This document shows positions 5,272 through 51,788 of a stretch of 58,740 nt of DNA, piece by piece; position 1 is the stretch's first letter; every line of letters starts with the position of its first letter. Both the position numbers and the translations under genes were made by a program. The notes under the pieces were generated by a model. It saw nothing but the letters and a program-made list of their open reading frames with translations. It was not told the DNA's origin and ran no database searches. Source of the stretch: Candidatus Cloacimonadota bacterium (GTDB taxonomy: Bacteria; Cloacimonadota; Cloacimonadia; Cloacimonadales; TCS61); contig JAUVLU010000014.1 in assembly GCA_030600585.1 (NCBI GenBank), forward strand, positions 1 through 58,740, written 5' to 3'.

Positions 5272-6192
5272 TTACAAATAATCTCTAAGCAAAGTTAAGC
5301 AATCACAATCTTGTATTATAAATTCATTAATGGGTTTTTTATCAACATAGGATTTTAATTTCCATTTAGTTTTTTCTATTTCATTCTTTGTTAAACCATA
5401 AGCTGTTCCAAATATCTGTTGATTATTGTTTAAATTCTCAGTTAAATTTAAAACATCTAAATTTTCATCTGCATAACCAAAACCTAAGAAAAAAATCCGT
5501 TGAGCACTTTGTAAACTTTGATCAATTAATTCCCTATTTTCTATATCTCTCTGATCATAAAGAACACTAATATTATTTAAGTAATCTATTTTTTTCACTA
5601 TACCCAAACCAGTCTTATATCTAATACCATCTACTTTTTCCCAATCTAAAGGTACTATTTTCCCGTAAACATGCATAATATTTAGTCTTAACATTTCATT
5701 TTTAAATTCACTCACATTAATTGAAGTAAATGTATTGCATAGTGCCTTATAAAGACTATTTTCAACTAATCTATCATAATTAAATGTTATAATTTTTAAC
5801 TTATTGTCAGCTATTTTATAATAACTGCTATCTTTGAATTTTTTTGTAATTCTGTCATACAAATAGCTTATCCAATTCTGTTTACCATAAATATCAGAAG
5901 GTTCTTTACTCTCAAGTTCAGCATTGAGTATTTGATTAATAATTGCATATTTGCCAATTGATTCAAATTGTTTATTTCTCGATAGAAAAAGATCTATTGA
6001 GAGATTTAATGAATTTGAAAATTTAATCTTGAAGTTTTCAATCTCATAATAAGGTATTAATCTATTATCTTTTAGTACGATCTTATCAATTTTATCATGG
6101 CAAATTCTTTCACGTAATTCAATACTTGTTGGATAGCCAAATGGTACACTAGCACCAGCGCCTAGAATGAAAACAGTTTTTTGTTTTATCAT
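5272..6192 (-). CDS. SIR2-like NAD-binding domain protein (306 aa)
   Basis: The N-terminus FILGAGASVPFGYPT (residues 8-22) is the glycine-rich NAD-binding loop of SIR2-like proteins. Further hallmarks are TFNYDRLVENSL (mid-protein), MHVYGKI, and IFFLGFGYADENL near the C-terminus, where true sirtuins bind the ribose. The 306-aa length suits the stand-alone SIR2_2-type proteins. In defence systems such as Thoeris ThsA, related domains degrade NAD+ during phage infection; others are of unknown role. I see no fused sensor domain here, so any partner would have to be a neighbouring gene. The start is supported by AGGAG seven bases upstream. AT-rich composition and accessory neighbours fit a mobile origin. 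Confidence 0.8.
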   Translation of the reverse strand: MIKQKTVFILGAGASVPFGYPTSIELRERICHDKIDKIVLKDNRLIPYYEIENFKIKFSNSLNLSIDLFLSRNKQFESIGKYAIINQILNAELESKEPSDIYGKQNWISYLYDRITKKFKDSSYYKIADNKLKIITFNYDRLVENSLYKALCNTFTSINVSEFKNEMLRLNIMHVYGKIVPLDWEKVDGIRYKTGLGIVKKIDYLNNISVLYDQRDIENRELIDQSLQSAQRIFFLGFGYADENLDVLNLTENLNNNQQIFGTAYGLTKNEIEKTKWKLKSYVDKKPINEFIIQDCDCLTLLRDYL

Positions 6193-6491: not shown

Positions 6492-6773
6492 CTATTTTAT
6501 TATTTCAAAGGTTAATAAATTAATAGTATCATCTACATATACCTCAATATCTTTATAATCAATAATATGTTCACGAATTTCTATATTAAAAAAATCATTG
6601 AGGTTGGCTCTGAATCTCTCTTTGATAATACAACCATTATCAAAGTGAAATTTTACAGTTTGTATTTTTTTTAGATTATATCCACGTTCTTTCGCTTGGA
6701 ATTCCGAATGAAACAATGGGCTGATATCAATATAATCATGCAGTTGCCTTTTTGTGACAATTACAAAACTCAT
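6492..6773 (-). CDS. Hypothetical protein (93 aa)
   Basis: The family is unknown. The protein has no signal or membrane segment and mixes short strands and helices. Its ATG overlaps the stop of the 143-aa gene (ATGA), and AAAGGAG lies 7 bases upstream. The 11-base gap to the next gene means all three genes form one operon. The family content resembles phage or plasmid cargo of unknown role. Confidence 0.6.
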   Translation of the reverse strand: MSFVIVTKRQLHDYIDISPLFHSEFQAKERGYNLKKIQTVKFHFDNGCIIKERFRANLNDFFNIEIREHIIDYKDIEVYVDDTINLLTFEIIK

Positions 6774-7201
6774 TTGCTCTCCTTTGCTAAGAAACTAATA
6801 TAATCTTCAACACATGTTTTAATATGATGGTCTAAACAGAAACGGTTAGCCCAATCACATAAGAAAAATATCTGAGATGCTGTAAGAACAACTAGCTTGT
6901 TATTTAATTCCTCATAATCAATTTTAATTTCTTCATTGAATTGTTCTTCAAATTTCTGTATTTCCATGCAAAATAAATCTATATCTGAAGCTAAAGAAGG
7001 TACAAATGTTCTACGGTTAATAAACTTCATAAGAAATTTTAATTCATTTACAGAAAACATTTTTCGTAACTCAAACAATGTAAATATTTGTAAATCATTC
7101 CAACTTTCAACTGCTCTTTGAGCACCTCTGTTACGGTTTCCATAAGTTTCAGCAAGTCTTTCTGCAAGCTGATCTGATATTTTAAATGCTATCGGTTTCA
7201 T
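6770..7201 (-). CDS. Hypothetical protein, first gene of a three-gene operon (143 aa)
   Basis: This is mostly helical. The N-terminus KPIAFKISDQLAERLAETYGNRNRGAQRAVESW resembles short DNA-binding proteins of the ribbon-helix-helix type (one strand, then two helices), but that is only a guess. The rest (LRKMFSVNELKFLMKFINRR; LTASQIFFLCDWANRF) looks like a helical bundle. AAAGGAG precedes the ATG by 5 bases. It is transcribed away from selD. If the N-terminus does bind DNA, it could autoregulate the operon from the 274-base spacer upstream. Confidence 0.6.
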   Translation of the reverse strand: MKPIAFKISDQLAERLAETYGNRNRGAQRAVESWNDLQIFTLFELRKMFSVNELKFLMKFINRRTFVPSLASDIDLFCMEIQKFEEQFNEEIKIDYEELNNKLVVLTASQIFFLCDWANRFCLDHHIKTCVEDYISFLAKESK

Positions 7202-7475
7202 TTTTACTCCTTTTCTTTACATTCTTTCATGATTATAAGATTCACATTCCAGATTGAAAGAACTTTTATTTATAAATCTAAACAAAACCAAAATTATTAT
7301 TTACGATTATACCGTCAAGAATATTTTCAAGAACTTTTTCAAGAAAACAGAATAGTAATAATATTTCAACTTTCCAATCAATTTTAACATTCAATTTTCT
7401 AACAAACAATCTATTGGAATTCATCTTGACATAATTTCCATATCTAATCATTTGAACATAATTATCGGAGAATAG

Positions 7476-8528
7476 ATGAATAAAAAAGAAGATATAATTA
7501 AATTAACAAAATATGTTAAGGCGGCTGGCTGAGCTGGTAAAGTAAGTCCGGCGGACTTAGGTATAATATTAAACGGGTTAAATTTTCCAACTTCAGATAG
7601 AACTTTAGTCGATAGATCCGATAATGATGATTCGGGTGTTTACAAGATCACGGATGATATTGCCATAGTGCAAACTGTTGATTTTATTACACCTGTAGTT
7701 GATGATCCATACATTTACGGACAGATAGCAGCAGCCAATAGTCTGAGTGATATTTATGCAATGGGAGCAAAAGTTGAAACAGCACTTAATCTTGTTGCTT
7801 ATGATAATTGTCATATTACAAAAGAAATCCTGCGAGAGATAATTCGCGGTGGAATAGATAAAGTTAAAGAAGCAGGCGGTGTTGTTCTCGGCGGACATAC
7901 TATCGAAGATATCGAGATGAAATATGGGCTTTCCGTTACGGGTACGATCCATCCTGATAAAATATTAAGGAATAATACAATAAGATCCGGTGATAAAATA
8001 ATCCTGACTAAACCTTTGGGAATGGGAGTTATTACAACTTCCATCAAAGCAGATGAAGCTCCGATAAGCGCTATAGATAAAGCTGTTTTTCATATGAGTT
8101 ACTTGAATAAAACAGCTTCGGAATCAGCAATCGAGATTGGTGTAAATGCCATTACCGATGTAACAGGATTCGGTCTTCTCGGGCATCTTTATGAAATGAT
8201 AAATAAATATACATCTGTGGAACTTGATTTCAATGCTGTTCCATTTATTGAAGAGGCTTTTGAGTTAGCTGAAATGGGACTATTCCCCGGTGGTTCTTAC
8301 CGGAATGAGCAATATTATAAACCACACATTGAACTTCAAAACAAATCTATTGCCGAACATAAATTGATGCTGATGTATGATGCTCAAACCTCCGGCGGTC
8401 TTCTTATTTCTGTTCCAAAAGGAAAAGCAAATTTACTCTTGGATAAATTAAGATCAGCCGGAATTGAATGGGCTGCTATTATCGGTGAAGTTACTGATTC
8501 AGCGAAAAATAATATAGTCATAGGTTAG
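7476..8528 (+). CDS. selD: Selenide, water dikinase, selenocysteine-containing form (350 aa)
   Basis: SelD makes selenophosphate from selenide and ATP, the selenium donor for selenocysteine tRNA and selenouridine. The frame from ATG 7476 reads MNKKEDIIKLTKYVKAAG, then TGA at 7530-7532, then AGKVSPADLG, with no break until TAG at 8528. The TGA falls where SelD proteins carry their catalytic Cys or Sec (GxGU/C followed by the conserved Lys). Downstream, QTVDFITPVVDDPYIYGQIAAANSLSDIYAMGA and the Asp/Gly-rich TDVTGFGLLGHL match the family. Full length is about 350 aa as usual. GGAG lies 7 bases before the ATG. A caller that treats TGA as stop would wrongly start at 7668 and lose the active site. 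Confidence 0.93.
7533..7565 (+). promoter_or_regulatory. Bacterial SECIS-like hairpin after the selD UGA
   Basis: TAAGTCC (7543-7549) pairs perfectly with GGACTTA (7553-7559) around a GGC loop. The loop starts 18 bases after the UGA, within the spacing that SelB-bound bacterial SECIS elements use. The hairpin lies inside the coding region, as bacterial SECIS elements do. Confidence 0.75.
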
Positions 8529-8589
8529 AACTTTTTTATGCAGAATTCATAAGAAAAAATACCATAATAGTTCTACATAATACCTTTTA

Positions 8590-8727
8590 GTCATTGTTCC
8601 GATTCATCTGGAAAGCAATCTAAGTTTATAAACAATTATTATAAAAGAGATTGCTTCCGTCTACGCTAAAGCTACGACGAGACAAGTCATTTGTAACAGC
8701 ATCCGGCAACTGCCGGACGCAAAGACA
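8590..8727 (+). repeat. Dispersed palindromic repeat (family with AGCAATCT / AGATTGCT arms), copy A
   Basis: AGCAATCT (8614-8621) and AGATTGCT (8648-8655) form a hairpin in an AT-rich centre. An extra hairpin, CCGGCA-ACTGCCGG, lies before the closing GCAAAGACA (8719-8727). The same skeleton occurs at 17812-17926. Copy A is the more degraded of the two. Confidence 0.65.
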
Positions 8728-8745
8728 TCGATATTTTTTTTTAAC

Positions 8746-8787
8746 TTGACGGTTAATCCCACATAATTTACTTAACTATGTAGTTAA
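8746..8787 (+). promoter_or_regulatory. Promoter with probable repressor operator
   Basis: A TTGACG -35-like box (8746-8751) is followed by a perfect inverted repeat, TTAACTA-TG-TAGTTAA (8772-8787), over the likely -10 and start region. It is 20 bases before the S24/XRE gene, so autoregulation is a reasonable inference. Confidence 0.5.
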
Positions 8788-8807
8788 ATGGAAATTAGGA
8801 GGATTGT

Positions 8808-9455
8808 ATGCCATTTGGAAAAAGAATGAAAGAAGTTCTAAAAAAACTTGAACTCACACAAGTTGGTCTGGCTGAGAAGATCGGGATTTCCAATGTTGTG
8901 ATAAACCGATACATAAAAGGGAAAACCCACCCGAATTATGATTTTCTAAATAAACTTGCTACCACTTTTAACATAAATATTACCTGGCTTATCACCGGTG
9001 AGGGTCCCATGTTCCCCACCCGGAATATCAAAACGGTGGGAAATCGTGAATATTATTATTTGCCAATACTCGATAATGTAAGCTGCGGTTCACCTCAAGA
9101 AATAGATTCAGCAGAGCCACTCGATCATATTATGATGGACACAAGCTCGCTATCGGGAGATTTCAATTCCTACTTTGCCTTTTATGCCAGCGGAGATAGT
9201 ATGGAACCTTATATTTCTAATGGTGATGTTGTTATTATTAAGCAATGTGATAACTGGGTTGCTGCTGATGAAAGAATTTGCATTATACGTGTGGAAGGTG
9301 AAGTAACGCTTAAAAAGGTAAAATCTTTTGCGGAAGGAAGGGAGATATTGCTTCAACCGTATAATAAAGATTATGCGCCCATCCTGCTTGATAGATACGC
9401 TTTGAAGGATGCTCTTCTTATCGGTATTGCTGTTATGTCTGTTAGGAATTTGTAG
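8808..9455 (+). CDS. XRE-S24 (LexA/CI-like) repressor (215 aa)
   Basis: An N-terminal Cro/C1-type helix-turn-helix (about residues 5-62, LTQVGLAEKIGISNVVINRYIKG) is joined to a C-terminal S24 peptidase fold. The catalytic Ser131 lies in SGDSMEP and the general-base Lys169 in EVTLKK. Such proteins repress phage or stress genes and cleave themselves when RecA is activated. The cleavage site is not obvious; AG/CG-type dipeptides near SCGSPQE (residues 92-98) are candidates. AGGAGG lies 5 bases before the ATG. The palindrome just upstream is its likely operator. The gene overlaps the convergent DUF2809 gene by 14 bases. Confidence 0.9.
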   Translation: MPFGKRMKEVLKKLELTQVGLAEKIGISNVVINRYIKGKTHPNYDFLNKLATTFNINITWLITGEGPMFPTRNIKTVGNREYYYLPILDNVSCGSPQEIDSAEPLDHIMMDTSSLSGDFNSYFAFYASGDSMEPYISNGDVVIIKQCDNWVAADERICIIRVEGEVTLKKVKSFAEGREILLQPYNKDYAPILLDRYALKDALLIGIAVMSVRNL

Positions 9456-9831
9456 ATTTTCTGATTTTTTCAAGCAAAGCCCAGCCGGCAAGAGAACCAA
9501 GAATATAATAAATAAAATCACTCGGAACAAATGATGTTCCAATTAGTGTTCTTCCGATAAACGTGCTTCTGATCATTTCCAAAAATATTGGATGCCAAAG
9601 TTGCAGAAATTCAAGGATACAAGTAATAATAAACACATTCAACGCAATCTTCCAAGGTCTGATTTTGATCAGGATCAAAGATATTACAAGGCACCAGAAA
9701 ACTTCATACAAACTGCCGCATAAAGAATCGTTGAACCATTTAGCCCCGATACCATCATAAAATTTACTGGCAAATCCTAATGGGATAATTACTAAAATTG
9801 ATATTATTGTAACTAATTTAAATTTATTCAT
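9442..9831 (-). CDS. DUF2809 family membrane protein (129 aa)
   Basis: This is an integral membrane protein with about four helices. The conserved DUF2809 features are visible: GIGAKWFNDSLCGSLYEVFWCLV, PWKIALNVFIITCILEFLQLWHP, and the RSTFIGRTLIGTSFVPSDF loop before the last helix. The length matches the family. The function of DUF2809 is not established. No strong ribosome site precedes the ATG. The gene is convergent with the repressor gene and overlaps its last codons. Confidence 0.85.
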   Translation of the reverse strand: MNKFKLVTIISILVIIPLGFASKFYDGIGAKWFNDSLCGSLYEVFWCLVISLILIKIRPWKIALNVFIITCILEFLQLWHPIFLEMIRSTFIGRTLIGTSFVPSDFIYYILGSLAGWALLEKIRKSTNS

Positions 9832-26767: not shown

Positions 26768-27235
26768 ATGAAAAAAAATACAAAGCTTATCAGGGAACAA
26801 GTTCAAAGACAATTAGCAAAATCTCAATCTTTGCTTGATATTTCAGTTCCCCATAAGGGCTGGATCAAAGCTATTAAGGATGCTTTAGGAATGAATGGAA
26901 GACAACTTGCAAAACGTATTGGTGTCACGAGACAACGTATATCATTACTGGAGAAACAAGAGGTTGATGGTACTGTCACTCTCAATACTATGAAAAAAAG
27001 CGCTAAGGCACTTGATTGTGTTTTCGTTTACTGTCTAATTCCTCGAATAAATCTTGAAGAAACTGTTCGGGATCAAGCAAGAAAAATTGCAATTAACCGA
27101 CTTAACAGAGCTTCTCATACTATGGATTTAGAGAATCAAGCACTCGGTAAAAAAGAGAATAAGGATATCCTAAATCACATGATTGAAGAAATCATGAATG
27201 AACAGCCATCAAACCTATGGGATAATGATGCTTAG
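26768..27235 (+). CDS. Mobile mystery protein A, XRE-type antitoxin/repressor (155 aa)
   Basis: It matches the MmyA pattern: an N-terminal helical extension (REQVQRQLAKSQSLLDISVPHKGWIKAIKDALGMNGRQLAKRIGV), an XRE helix-turn-helix (TRQRISLLEKQEVDGTVTLNTMKKSAKAL, about residues 47-85), and a C-terminal helix (HTMDLENQALGKKENKDILNHMIEEIM). MmyA is normally found next to the Fic protein MmyB, as here, and probably acts as antitoxin and repressor. AGGAGG lies 6 bases before the ATG. Three palindromes upstream are the presumed operators. It overlaps MmyB by 11 bases or fewer. Confidence 0.9.
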   Translation: MKKNTKLIREQVQRQLAKSQSLLDISVPHKGWIKAIKDALGMNGRQLAKRIGVTRQRISLLEKQEVDGTVTLNTMKKSAKALDCVFVYCLIPRINLEETVRDQARKIAINRLNRASHTMDLENQALGKKENKDILNHMIEEIMNEQPSNLWDNDA

Positions 27236-27815
27236 TTTACATTATCCGAAAGGAACAACACCTATTGACTCGGATGAAGCTCAAGGCTTGCTTCTATCAC
27301 ATATAACAACACGTGGAGAATTGGATAGATGGGAACAGGAAAATATTATTGAAGCAATGACGTGGTTAGATAAAGCAAAACCTAAAGATATTTTGAATGA
27401 ACAATTCGTTAAAAAGCTTCATAAGCGTATGTTCTGTAATGTCTGGGAATGGGCAGGAATCTTTAGGAGAAGTGATAAAACTATTGGTGAACCATGGTAT
27501 CAAGTTCCAATAAGTTTAAAAAATTTGTTTGATGATACACAATTACGGATTGAGTTAAAGAATGAATCGAATGATGAAATAGCTGTCCATTTTCATCATC
27601 GCCTTTTGTTGATTCATCCATTTCCCAATGGTAATGGTCGTCATGCACGTTTAATGACTGATCTGCTTCTTGAAAATGTTCTTAGTTGTTCAAGGTTTAC
27701 CTGGGGAGGTGAGGAATTATCTAAAACCGGTAATATCCGACAAAAATACATTGAAGCTCTTCATAAAGCGGATGAATTGAATTATGAACCACTGCTGCAA
27801 TTTGTACGGACTTAA
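27225..27815 (+). CDS. Mobile mystery protein B, Fic-domain protein (196 aa)
   Basis: It is a Fic/Doc-fold protein with the active-site loop HPFPNGNGRHAR (residues 131-142), which carries the catalytic His, Asn-Gly-Asn-Gly-Arg and second Arg of AMP-transferases. The MmyB start LHYPKGTTPIDSDEAQGL is also present, along with WEWAGIFRRSDKTIG. I do not see a clear N-terminal inhibitory motif; regulation would then depend on MmyA. Either of the paired ATGs at 27225 or 27228 can start it, both inside the MmyA stop region. It probably modifies a host protein by AMPylation and functions as the toxin, by analogy. Confidence 0.88.
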   Translation: MMLSLHYPKGTTPIDSDEAQGLLLSHITTRGELDRWEQENIIEAMTWLDKAKPKDILNEQFVKKLHKRMFCNVWEWAGIFRRSDKTIGEPWYQVPISLKNLFDDTQLRIELKNESNDEIAVHFHHRLLLIHPFPNGNGRHARLMTDLLLENVLSCSRFTWGGEELSKTGNIRQKYIEALHKADELNYEPLLQFVRT

Positions 27816-40692: not shown

Positions 40693-41772
40693 ATGAAGAA
40701 TAAAAAAATTATTATTGCAGCAGGTGGAACCGGCGGACACATTATTCCTGCAATTTCTATAGCTAAAGAGCTTATGAAAGAAGGAGTTCAAATTCTCTTT
40801 GTTGGAAACAGGAACAGCATGGAACAAAAGCTGGCAATGGAGAATAACATTGATTTCGCAGAGATAAATGTTCAGAAATTCTACCGTAAATTAACTTTTG
40901 CACATTTCAAATTTCCATTCAAATTGATAAAAAGCATTTTGGATTCCAAAAAAATTATCCGCAATTTTAAACCCGATGCATTTTTGGGAACCGGCGGTTT
41001 TGTCAGTGGTCCGGTAGGTTATGCAGCTCACCTGCAAAAAATTCCTATCTTCCTGCAGGAACAAAACAGTTATCCGGGTGCAACTACAAAAATACTCAGT
41101 AAATATGCTGTAAAAATATTTTTAGGAAATTTTAAAGCAAAGAAATATCTGCCTTCAAATAAATTGGTTTTTTCCGGTAATCCCATTAACCAAACGGTAA
41201 TAAGCGAAACTACAGAAATTGATTATGCGAAATATGGTTTAAAAAAAGATGTTACAAAAATATTTTTGACCGGTGGGAGTCAGGGTTCGGTAGTTTTGAA
41301 TAAAGCATTTTTGCCAATTATAGACGATATTTTAAAAAAAGATTTTGAAATAATCTGGCAGATCGGAAAACATAGTTTTGATGAATTTTATCCAAAAGTC
41401 AAAGATATTAAAGGTGTTTACGCTTTTGATTTCACAAATGAAATGGGTAAAATATATAATTCTGTTGATATTGCGATTGCACGTGCAGGTGCGTTAAGTC
41501 TGGCAGAGATGGAAACCAAGAAAATTCCTGTCATTCTGATACCTTTACCCTCTGCTGCAGAAAATCACCAATATTTTAATGCTCTGGAATTAAAAGAAAA
41601 AAATGTTGCGGAAATAATTGAGCAGAAAGATCTGGATTCGGAGATATTGAAAAATACTCTATTTAAAATGTTAGATAAAATTAATGAAATTAAAGATAAT
41701 TTCACTTCAACTGTGCATACCAATGCAGCAGAGAATATTGCAGAGCATTTATTAAGAAATCTGGGGAAATAA
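40693..41772 (+). CDS. murG: MurG lipid II synthase (359 aa)
   Basis: It adds GlcNAc to lipid I. GGTGGH at 11-16, FLGTGGFVSGPVGYAA and the EQNSYPG loop are in the N-domain. TGGSQGSVVLN and RAGALSLAEMETKKIPVILIPLPSAAENHQYFNALEL form the UDP-GlcNAc site. The size is standard. GGAAATTTA precedes the ATG. The AbiEi-like gene follows after one base. Confidence 0.95.
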   Translation: MKNKKIIIAAGGTGGHIIPAISIAKELMKEGVQILFVGNRNSMEQKLAMENNIDFAEINVQKFYRKLTFAHFKFPFKLIKSILDSKKIIRNFKPDAFLGTGGFVSGPVGYAAHLQKIPIFLQEQNSYPGATTKILSKYAVKIFLGNFKAKKYLPSNKLVFSGNPINQTVISETTEIDYAKYGLKKDVTKIFLTGGSQGSVVLNKAFLPIIDDILKKDFEIIWQIGKHSFDEFYPKVKDIKGVYAFDFTNEMGKIYNSVDIAIARAGALSLAEMETKKIPVILIPLPSAAENHQYFNALELKEKNVAEIIEQKDLDSEILKNTLFKMLDKINEIKDNFTSTVHTNAAENIAEHLLRNLGK

Positions 41773-41773
41773 A

Positions 41774-42508
41774 ATGTGTAAAGACTTATCAAAGAAAGAT
41801 CTAATTCTGAAGTTAATTGATAATTATAAATCTTCGGGGAAAAAATACTTCAACTTGAAAAATCTTCGACAGGATTTGCTTATGGTTTCTCCACACTTTA
41901 ATATGGAAACTTTAAAGAAGAATCTCTCTCGCCTGAAGAAAGAAGAATTAATTTATTCCGCCGGAAGAGGTTGGTATTCTTTTCTACCCGATGTTTTTAA
42001 ATTAGATACAACACCGGTAAGAAATATTATAAATTTATTGAAAAGAGAATTTCCATTATTAGAGTTCAATGTTTGGAGCACAGAACAGCTTGCCGCTTAT
42101 TTCCATCATATTCCTACTCGGTTCTTCACTTTCATTTATGCAGATAAAGATTATTTGCAGGCAATCTATGAAAAATTAATCATTAAAGGAAAAAATATAA
42201 TTTTGAATCCTACACCCAAAGAAGCAGATAAGATATTCAATGTGGAAAAAGAAACTTTCATTCTACGACCTTCAACAACTGAAGCTCCGGTTGATGAACA
42301 TTTTGCAAAGATCGAATTAATTTTAGTAGAATTATTTCGGGAAAAGAATAAAATTTCCATTTTAGATGAATGGGAATATAATGTAATATTTAGAAATATT
42401 GTACCTAAATCAAGAATTAACATTTCTGTTTTTACCTTATACAATAGGCGTTTAGATGATTCTTACACGTGTCCTCTAATGGCAGTATTTGAGGATAACT
42501 GCGGTTAG
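41774..42508 (+). CDS. AbiEi-like antitoxin/regulator (244 aa)
   Basis: A winged-helix-like N-terminus (about residues 5-70: KKDLILKLIDNY, NLRQDLLMVSPHFNMETLKKNLSRLKKEELIYSAGRGWYSF) is followed by a larger domain (VWSTEQLAAYFHHIPTRFFTFIY, IILNPTPKEADKIFNVEKETFILRPSTTEAPVDEHFAKIELILVELFREKNKI). This layout matches AbiEi/DUF6577-type partners of AbiEii nucleotidyltransferases. It lies one base after murG and 17 bases before the AbiEii gene, and is read in the same direction as the dcw operon. The family call depends on the neighbour as well as the sequence. Confidence 0.75.
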   Translation: MCKDLSKKDLILKLIDNYKSSGKKYFNLKNLRQDLLMVSPHFNMETLKKNLSRLKKEELIYSAGRGWYSFLPDVFKLDTTPVRNIINLLKREFPLLEFNVWSTEQLAAYFHHIPTRFFTFIYADKDYLQAIYEKLIIKGKNIILNPTPKEADKIFNVEKETFILRPSTTEAPVDEHFAKIELILVELFREKNKISILDEWEYNVIFRNIVPKSRINISVFTLYNRRLDDSYTCPLMAVFEDNCG

Positions 42509-42525
42509 AGGACAAAGGAATAAAA

Positions 42526-43602
42526 ATGATAAGAGAGATTTGTTTTGAATTGGAATGGATAAAAAAAATTCAAAAAATGAATGAACGCTTGAATCCGGTT
42601 TTTATAGAAAACACGGTATATGCTTTTGAATTGTTGTCTGAACTTGTAAAATTAAACATAGATTTTGTTTTTAAGGGTGGAACAAGCTTATTATTGCATT
42701 TCCCTAAGCCAAGAAGATTATCTACCGATATTGATATTGTCGGTGAGTTTGATATTGAAGTTCTTGATAAAATAATTCAAAACAATCCCAAGTTTAAAAG
42801 TTACAAACCTGCAAACAGGTTTCATACAAAAAAGATGATTAGAAATTTTGAATTTTATTATGATACAGTAATACCTGATGTAAGTGAACAATTTGTTTTA
42901 CTTGATATTATTTTCGCCAAACCTTGTCATCCGGCAGTTGAAAAAATAGATATAAAATCACCACTATTTGAATGTGATGAAACATTGAATGTGCAGGTTC
43001 CTTCAATAGAATCTCTCCTTGGAGATAAACTCACAGCTTTTGCACCTGAAACAATCGGCATTCCATTGAAAAATGATGATTATAGACCTGTAAATAATAT
43101 TAAGCAGTTGTATGATATTTCAGTTTTGTTTGATAAAGTTGAAAATCTTAAAATGGTTTATGAATCGTATTTGAGCAATCATCAGCAAAATTGCAAGATC
43201 AGAAATCAAGAGTTTGAAATTATTGAGACATTAAATGATACGATTGATACGTGCTTACTGTTGTCATCCTCAGGTTTAAAAAAAGCTGGAATTGATAGAA
43301 AGTTATACCTTTTGGAATTGGGATGTGATCGTTTAAATCAGTTTCTTTTATCAGATACATTTTCCGTTCAACTATCCAAAAAACATGCAGCAAAAGTTGC
43401 TTTAATTGCAGTAATACTCAAAAAAGAAAGGTTTAATTTTGATCTTAATAATTTTAGATTTTCCAAAAGTAAATTGAAACAATTAGAAGATGCAAAGTTG
43501 AGTTCTATTTATACTTCGCTTGAAAAGTTAAAAGAAATTGATTCAGAAGCTTATTATTACTGGCATCTGGTTTCGCAAATAGAAGAGGGTAAATTATGTT
43601 AG
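42526..43602 (+). CDS. AbiEii/AbiGii-type nucleotidyltransferase (358 aa)
   Basis: The minimal nucleotidyltransferase signature is clear: FKGGTSLLLHF (GG at 51-52, GTS loop) and LSTDIDIV (Asp68 and Asp70), followed by the second acidic strand (VLLDIIFA) and VPSIESLLGDKLTAF. AbiEii toxins block growth by transferring nucleotides to an RNA or protein target; recent work on relatives (MenT) shows tRNA as target, but the target here is unknown. The stop overlaps the murC start by 7 bases, so translation of murC would pass through this gene. Confidence 0.85.
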   Translation: MIREICFELEWIKKIQKMNERLNPVFIENTVYAFELLSELVKLNIDFVFKGGTSLLLHFPKPRRLSTDIDIVGEFDIEVLDKIIQNNPKFKSYKPANRFHTKKMIRNFEFYYDTVIPDVSEQFVLLDIIFAKPCHPAVEKIDIKSPLFECDETLNVQVPSIESLLGDKLTAFAPETIGIPLKNDDYRPVNNIKQLYDISVLFDKVENLKMVYESYLSNHQQNCKIRNQEFEIIETLNDTIDTCLLLSSSGLKKAGIDRKLYLLELGCDRLNQFLLSDTFSVQLSKKHAAKVALIAVILKKERFNFDLNNFRFSKSKLKQLEDAKLSSIYTSLEKLKEIDSEAYYYWHLVSQIEEGKLC

Positions 43603-50706: not shown

Positions 50707-50750
50707 TTAAGTTTTCTTTACTTATTAATATTAGCAAGAAAATTCATCGG

Positions 50751-50980
50751 AATCCCAAAGGGACTCAACATGAATAACCGCAAGTGAAACTTGCATAATG
50801 AAAACGAAAAGAAACGAATCCCAAAGGGATTCAACATGAATAACCGCAAGTAAAACTTGCAGAATGGAAACGAAAAGAACAAGAATCCCAAAGGGATTCA
50901 ACGTGAATAACCGCAAGTGAAACTTGTGGTTACAGAAAAAAAGACAAAGCAGAACCCTGAGAGGGTTAAACAAAAAGCGA
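50751..50980 (+). repeat. REP array, left copy
   Basis: Three units start at 50751, 50817 and 50884 (66 and 67 bases apart). Each has AATCCCAAAGGGATT-like and ACCGCAAGTGAAACTTGCGG-like hairpins joined by CAACATGAATA. The array closes with an AACCCTGAGAGGGTT hairpin and ACAAAAAG. Minus-strand frames through it are repeats, not genes. Confidence 0.85.
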
Positions 50981-50993
50981 GGATTAAAAACTT

Positions 50994-51440
50994 ATGTCAA
51001 CTTACACACAAATCCTTTATCAGATTGTATTCTCAACAAAGAAAAGAGAAAGAACACTAATAGAAAAAAATCAAGAAAAACTATATTCATATATTTGGGG
51101 AGTTATTAAAAATAAAAAATGCCACCTCTATCGGATTAATGGTATTGAAGATCATATTCACATTATCACTCATCTTCATCCAAGTATTGCACTTTCTGAT
51201 TTTGTAAAAGACATAAAACTTTCAACTTCTTCTTGGATAAAGGAAAATTCGTGTTTCCCTGGTTTTAGCGGATGGCAGAAAGGATACGGAGCTTTTACAT
51301 ACTCGATATCAGAAAAAGACAGGCTAATAGAATATGTGAAAAATCAAAAAGCACATCATAAAAAGAAAAGTTTTAAGGAAGAGTATATTGAATTATTGCG
51401 TGAACATAAAATTGAATTTGATGAGAAGTATCTGTTGTAA
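50994..51440 (+). CDS. IS200-like REP-associated tyrosine transposase (148 aa)
   Basis: A Y1 HUH transposase: HIH at 54-56 (DHIHIITHLHP) is the metal-binding pair and Tyr114 in LIEYVKNQ is the probable catalytic tyrosine. KKKSFKEEYIELLREHKIEFDEKYLL is the C-terminal segment typical of the RAYT branch. It cuts single-stranded DNA at hairpins and is thought to mobilise REP sequences. It lies 13 bases after the left array, followed by reverse-oriented units and the right array. ATG 50994 lacks a strong ribosome site. Confidence 0.92.
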   Translation: MSTYTQILYQIVFSTKKRERTLIEKNQEKLYSYIWGVIKNKKCHLYRINGIEDHIHIITHLHPSIALSDFVKDIKLSTSSWIKENSCFPGFSGWQKGYGAFTYSISEKDRLIEYVKNQKAHHKKKSFKEEYIELLREHKIEFDEKYLL

Positions 51441-51443
51441 TGT

Positions 51444-51530
51444 TCAAGCCCTTCAGGCTTGGATTTGTGCTTGTCGCATCTCTACGGGTTTCACCCGTAG
51501 TTATTCAAGTTCAACTCCTTCGGAGTATGG
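51444..51530 (-). repeat. Reverse-oriented REP-like hairpins after the transposase
   Basis: Hairpins AAGCCCTTCAGGCTT, CTACGGGTTTCACCCGTAG (51482-51500) and ACTCCTTCGGAGT (about 51513-51525), joined by TTATTCAAGTTCA, are the same unit design as the flanking arrays on the opposite strand. Confidence 0.7.
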
Positions 51531-51562
51531 AAAGGACACTAATACTTGTTAATAATTACAAA

Positions 51563-51788
51563 AATCCCAAAGGGATTCAACATGAATAACCGCAGGTGAA
51601 ACCTGTGGAATGAAAAAAAAAGGACCGGAATCCCAAAGGGATTCAACAAGAATAACCGTAAGTGAAACTTGCGGAATGAAAACGAAAAGAACCGGAATCC
51701 CAAAGGGATTCAACATGAATAACCGCAGGTGAAACCTGTGGTTACTGGAAAGTAGAAGAAGCAGAACCCTGAAGGGGTTCAACAAAAA
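51563..51788 (+). repeat. REP array, right copy
   Basis: Units start at 51563, 51629 and 51696, the same 66- and 67-base spacing as the left array. It ends in the same GTGGTTAC, AGCAGAACCCTGAAGGGGTT and ACAAAAAG sequence. It is therefore a direct duplicate of the left array, not just a relative. Confidence 0.85.

Follow-up and report, generated by a model that had tools for sequence, protein, structure and literature searches.

A selenophosphate synthetase gene of Candidatus Cloacimonadota with an internal UGA that is most probably read as selenocysteine

Selenophosphate synthetase (SelD) of the selenocysteine (Sec) type is the second most widespread selenoprotein family of prokaryotes. It has been known for two decades that a SelD of the Sec type can support its own synthesis (PMC1794560, PMC4561486), and published rules for bacterial SECIS (bSECIS) elements specify a loop of 3-9 nt with a G in the first two loop positions, an upper stem of 4-16 bp, a spacing of 16-37 nt from the UGA, and an energy of -7.5 kcal/mol or lower (PMC13188914). 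Our literature search found no paper linking Cloacimonadota with selenoproteins, and one paper that mentions a Cloacimonetes-type tRNA-Sec. The DNA analyzed here, a stretch of 58,740 nt referred to as the window, comes from a member of the Cloacimonadota near Ca. Tenebribacter, because the named relatives are Candidatus Cloacimonadota, including Ca. Tenebribacter burtonii, mawsonii, and davisii; one relative bin is labelled Candidatus Delongbacteria. The window almost certainly contains an ordinary bacterial selenophosphate synthetase gene with an internal UGA read as selenocysteine, and its features are as follows:

7464..7475, forward strand: likely ribosome binding site region, ATCGGAGAATAG, just 5' of ATG 7476, as judged from the sequence
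7476..8528, forward strand: selD, Sec-containing selenophosphate synthetase, 350 aa with the UGA read as Sec (predicted), stop TAG included
7530..7532, forward strand: predicted Sec codon UGA for residue 19, within the motif G-U-A-G-K; the close orthologues all have TGA here, and distant SelDs have TGC/TGT
7543..7559, forward strand: putative bacterial SECIS hairpin with a 7-bp stem, a GGC apical loop, and 17 nt from the UGA to the loop, supported by covariation and codon conservation

The only in-frame stop between ATG 7476 and TAG 8526-8528 is TGA 7530-7532, the codon of residue 19 of 350, and both the reading of the frame and the SelD alignment bore out the claim of an earlier note on this DNA that the frame is open save for a TGA at the catalytic Cys/Sec position. 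The purine-rich stretch listed above lies immediately upstream of the ATG. The product is a full-length SelD (selenide, water dikinase) of standard length, as had also been claimed. In a profile search it matched TIGR00476 (selD) with 358.2 bits against a cut-off of 125 (E 3.5e-107), residues 9-316 aligning with positions 1-309 of the 311 in the profile, so that the whole model is covered when the UGA is read through. The domain search found AIRS and AIRS_C domains, and the best solved relative is 2yye, a selenide, water dikinase (E 8e-69). The segment G-U19-A-G-K22 aligns with G-C-A-A-K of 2yye and with the Cys homologues, and the conserved Lys after the Sec/Cys position is present as K22. 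From established knowledge of SelD, we take residue 19 to be the catalytic Sec/Cys position. A search of the window's own genome found no second SelD.

A TGA is one base from TGC or TGT, and some more distant relatives have a Cys-type SelD, as would be expected if the TGA were a sequencing or assembly error and the gene encoded a Cys-type SelD. The earlier note had recognized that such an error would overturn its reading and had proposed an alignment to Sec- and Cys-type SelDs, which was carried out on a sample of 40 related genomes. The full-length SelDs from the same genus (six genomes, 75-89% identity) each had exactly one in-frame TGA in an otherwise open frame (6/6), and the next closest orthologues (59-72% identity) all had exactly one as well, while more distant homologues had either TGA or a Cys codon (TGC/TGT) for residue 19. 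An identical TGA in many separate, independently assembled genomes at 59-89% protein identity, followed by a conserved hairpin, makes an assembly error extremely improbable, and this explanation was rejected; retention of the TGA across relatives rules out a sequencing error and, equally, a pseudogene. Among SelDs of other kinds, the Cys-type SelD of a relative in the same order (L040) keeps an AGGAC-CGTGC-GTCCT hairpin behind its Cys codon, resembling what a SECIS would leave behind once Sec had been replaced by Cys. In addition, frames of 734-776 aa with a SelD domain and without an in-frame stop were seen in seven relatives, two of which have such a frame alongside a Sec-type SelD.

The hairpin behind the TGA has the sequence TAAGTCC-GGC-GGACTTA (UAAGUCC-GGC-GGACUUA in the RNA), and its seven base pairs are perfect. 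The stem and the GGC loop are thus as described in the earlier note, but the gap from the UGA to the stem is 10 nt rather than 11. Taken alone, this hairpin is weak evidence, because there are 14 perfect hairpins with a 7-bp stem and a 3-nt loop in the whole window, a comparable hairpin follows 6 of the 1252 forward-strand TGAs, and in single-sequence folding the energy of the region does not stand out from that of shuffled sequences (z about -0.7 to -0.9). Since this z-score was not significant, comparative evidence was preferred. In 23 Sec-type SelD genes from relatives, the pairing was kept in 91.3% of cells, including 7 cells that were changed on both sides yet still paired, and the closing pair of the loop was open in 4 of the 23. 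None of 500 shuffles reached the observed pairing value, the double-sided compensatory count, or the covariation score. The relatedness of the sequences can inflate the shuffle test, and therefore more weight is given to a control in which the partner strand was slid by one to three columns, which lowered the pairing to 58% or less, and to the codons of the hairpin. In an alignment of 18 genes, Ser24 was AGT in 16/16, Pro25 was CCG in 18/18, and Asp27 was GAC in 18/18; over these genes as a whole, CCG and GAC make up only a minority, 49 of 208 Pro codons and 73 of 420 Asp codons with the hairpin sites counted in. When selD was scanned for excess codon identity, the best 6 of the 205 segments scanned all overlapped the hairpin. 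Its position at the catalytic codon of SelD, the conserved TGA, the codon conservation, and the compensatory pairs together set the hairpin beyond chance, and the aligned sequences show that 7543-7559 is a real, conserved hairpin. Rfam returned no relevant family, whether 6500-9500 or the whole window was scanned.

To a standard gene caller, the frame is open only from 7668, which could mean that selD is a pseudogene or that translation starts at this codon and yields a shortened protein lacking the active site. This is scarcely credible and was rejected, for the residues on both sides of the TGA are conserved in all orthologues, the strongest codon constraint of the whole gene is found around the TGA, and selD has no other disablement. 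The earlier note had predicted that standard callers would start at an ATG at 7668 and miss the active site. The frame is indeed open from 7668, but the start codon there is GTG. Automatic callers would probably start selD at or after this position, with loss of the active site.

The earlier note had also expected UGA decoding, with selA, selB, and selC elsewhere in the genome, and had made its reading depend on the presence of selB and selC. Both were found when the genome was searched. Contig C80 carries tRNA-Sec with a UCA anticodon (1500-1594 of L001, near 41574-41662 of the contig) and, adjoining it in divergent orientation, selB (649 aa, 339 bits against a cut-off of 242). The last ~105 aa of selA lie at the start of contig C45, at the contig edge, and score under the model cut-off as a fragment; selA is over the cut-off in 9/9 other genomes of the genus, two of them partial, and is full length in most relatives. 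Of the 21 relatives searched, 19 have selA, including every one with a Sec-type SelD, and 20 have tRNA-Sec over the cut-off. The selenouridine synthase SelU/YbbB is encoded on contig C19. Contig C45 also carries a gene for the formate dehydrogenase alpha subunit (fdhA, 3508-4632 of L066) with an in-frame TGA in 'DHCARL*HSS' and, behind it, a strong GGCC-GGTCT-GGCC hairpin with a GGUCU loop; it lies ~3.2 kb from the selA fragment, with NuoE-like and NuoF-like genes between. The fdhA gene is a second selenoprotein gene of this genome, whose selenoproteome was sampled by family searches. FlpD (FrhD/MvhD-like) is often a selenoprotein, and the family search did not find it in the genome. Directly adjoining selB on contig C80 is a CRISPR-Cas9 locus (Cas9 of 1060 aa, Cas1, Cas2, and a repeat array; 3182-9152 of L065).

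At least two genes, selD and fdhA, have a UGA that is read through, and it might be supposed that this codon stands for another residue throughout the genome, as it does in codes 4 or 25, rather than serving specifically for Sec. Both UGAs are at known Sec positions, the other genes read are open without an in-frame TGA, none was seen at conserved positions of housekeeping genes in the window, and the Sec machinery is present. This explanation therefore has almost no likelihood and was rejected. The further frames of the window that are joined by a TGA look like chance upstream extensions.

The standard bacterial pathway accounts for everything seen. SelB with Sec-tRNA(UCA) would bind the stem-loop at 7543-7559, and we infer that UGA 7530-7532 is thereby decoded as Sec in the organism. 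SelD, if enzymatically active with a catalytic Sec at residue 19, would convert selenide and ATP to selenophosphate. This could be used by SelA in the conversion of Ser-tRNA-Sec to Sec-tRNA-Sec, which would serve SelD itself as well as formate dehydrogenase, and by SelU/YbbB in the formation of 2-selenouridine in tRNA. SelD would thus be required for its own making, a loop already described for Sec-type SelD (PMC1794560). It is unlikely, on the other hand, that the Cloacimonadota have a lineage-specific mode of Sec insertion in which a short-helix tRNA-Sec and a near-invariant small CCGG-type selD SECIS, unlike the fdhA hairpin with its GGUCU loop, are co-adapted to SelB.

Several other features were observed in the window. 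An IS200-like Y1 transposase gene at 50994-51440 (PF01797, E 1.5e-22) is flanked on both sides by tandem repeats of ~66-67 bp with palindromes, and the whole of 50750-51741 looks like a REP element/RAYT unit. An AbiEi/AbiEii-like toxin-antitoxin pair (41774-43602; PADLOC E 1.6e-31 and 2.2e-84) is located inside a cell-wall/division gene cluster, between murG-like and murC-like genes. A 637-aa protein encoded at 474-2387 matches the candidate defence family PDC-S56 (E 1.1e-224), and a SIR2-like protein is encoded on the opposite strand at 5272-6192. At 26768-27815, the overlapping frames of an HTH protein and then a Fic-domain protein are perhaps a two-gene toxin-antitoxin-like unit.

This work corrects the annotation of selD, a good example of a gene that standard callers would cut short, and assigns to this Cloacimonadota lineage the decoding of Sec, selenouridine, and a formate dehydrogenase with Sec. 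The understanding of selenoproteins is unchanged by this selD, which is an unremarkable case of a well-known kind. When compared with the bSECIS consensus, the hairpin shares the small loop starting with GG, the 7-bp stem, and the 17 nt from UGA to loop, and thus has the published geometry, with a 3-nt loop at the small end of the range. Its predicted energy is marginal relative to the limit of -7.5 kcal/mol, at -7.1 kcal/mol for 7533-7570 and -6.3 for the bare hairpin, values that vary with the program and the length folded; the hairpin of a relative was predicted at -8.4. The acceptor helix of the tRNA-Sec is short, with 6 Watson-Crick pairs (GAGAGG/CCUCUC) and a 5-bp T stem, and in the relatives compared the pair just outside the helix is mismatched; this tRNA fits roughly the 'Cloacimonetes type' with 7+5 (PMC5330540). 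The ~734-776 aa Cys SelD-domain frames in the same family and order fit the NADH dehydrogenase-like/SelD fusions (PMC4561486) by length alone, and the selD of the window differs from these fusions in being stand-alone and Sec-type. With described Sec-type SelDs (TIGR00476; 2yye), it has in common a full-length AIRS/AIRS_C kinase, an N-terminal Sec/Cys loop followed by the conserved Lys, and a hairpin directly behind the UGA, and it differs in detail only, the residue two after Sec being Gly here and Cys in many Cys forms.
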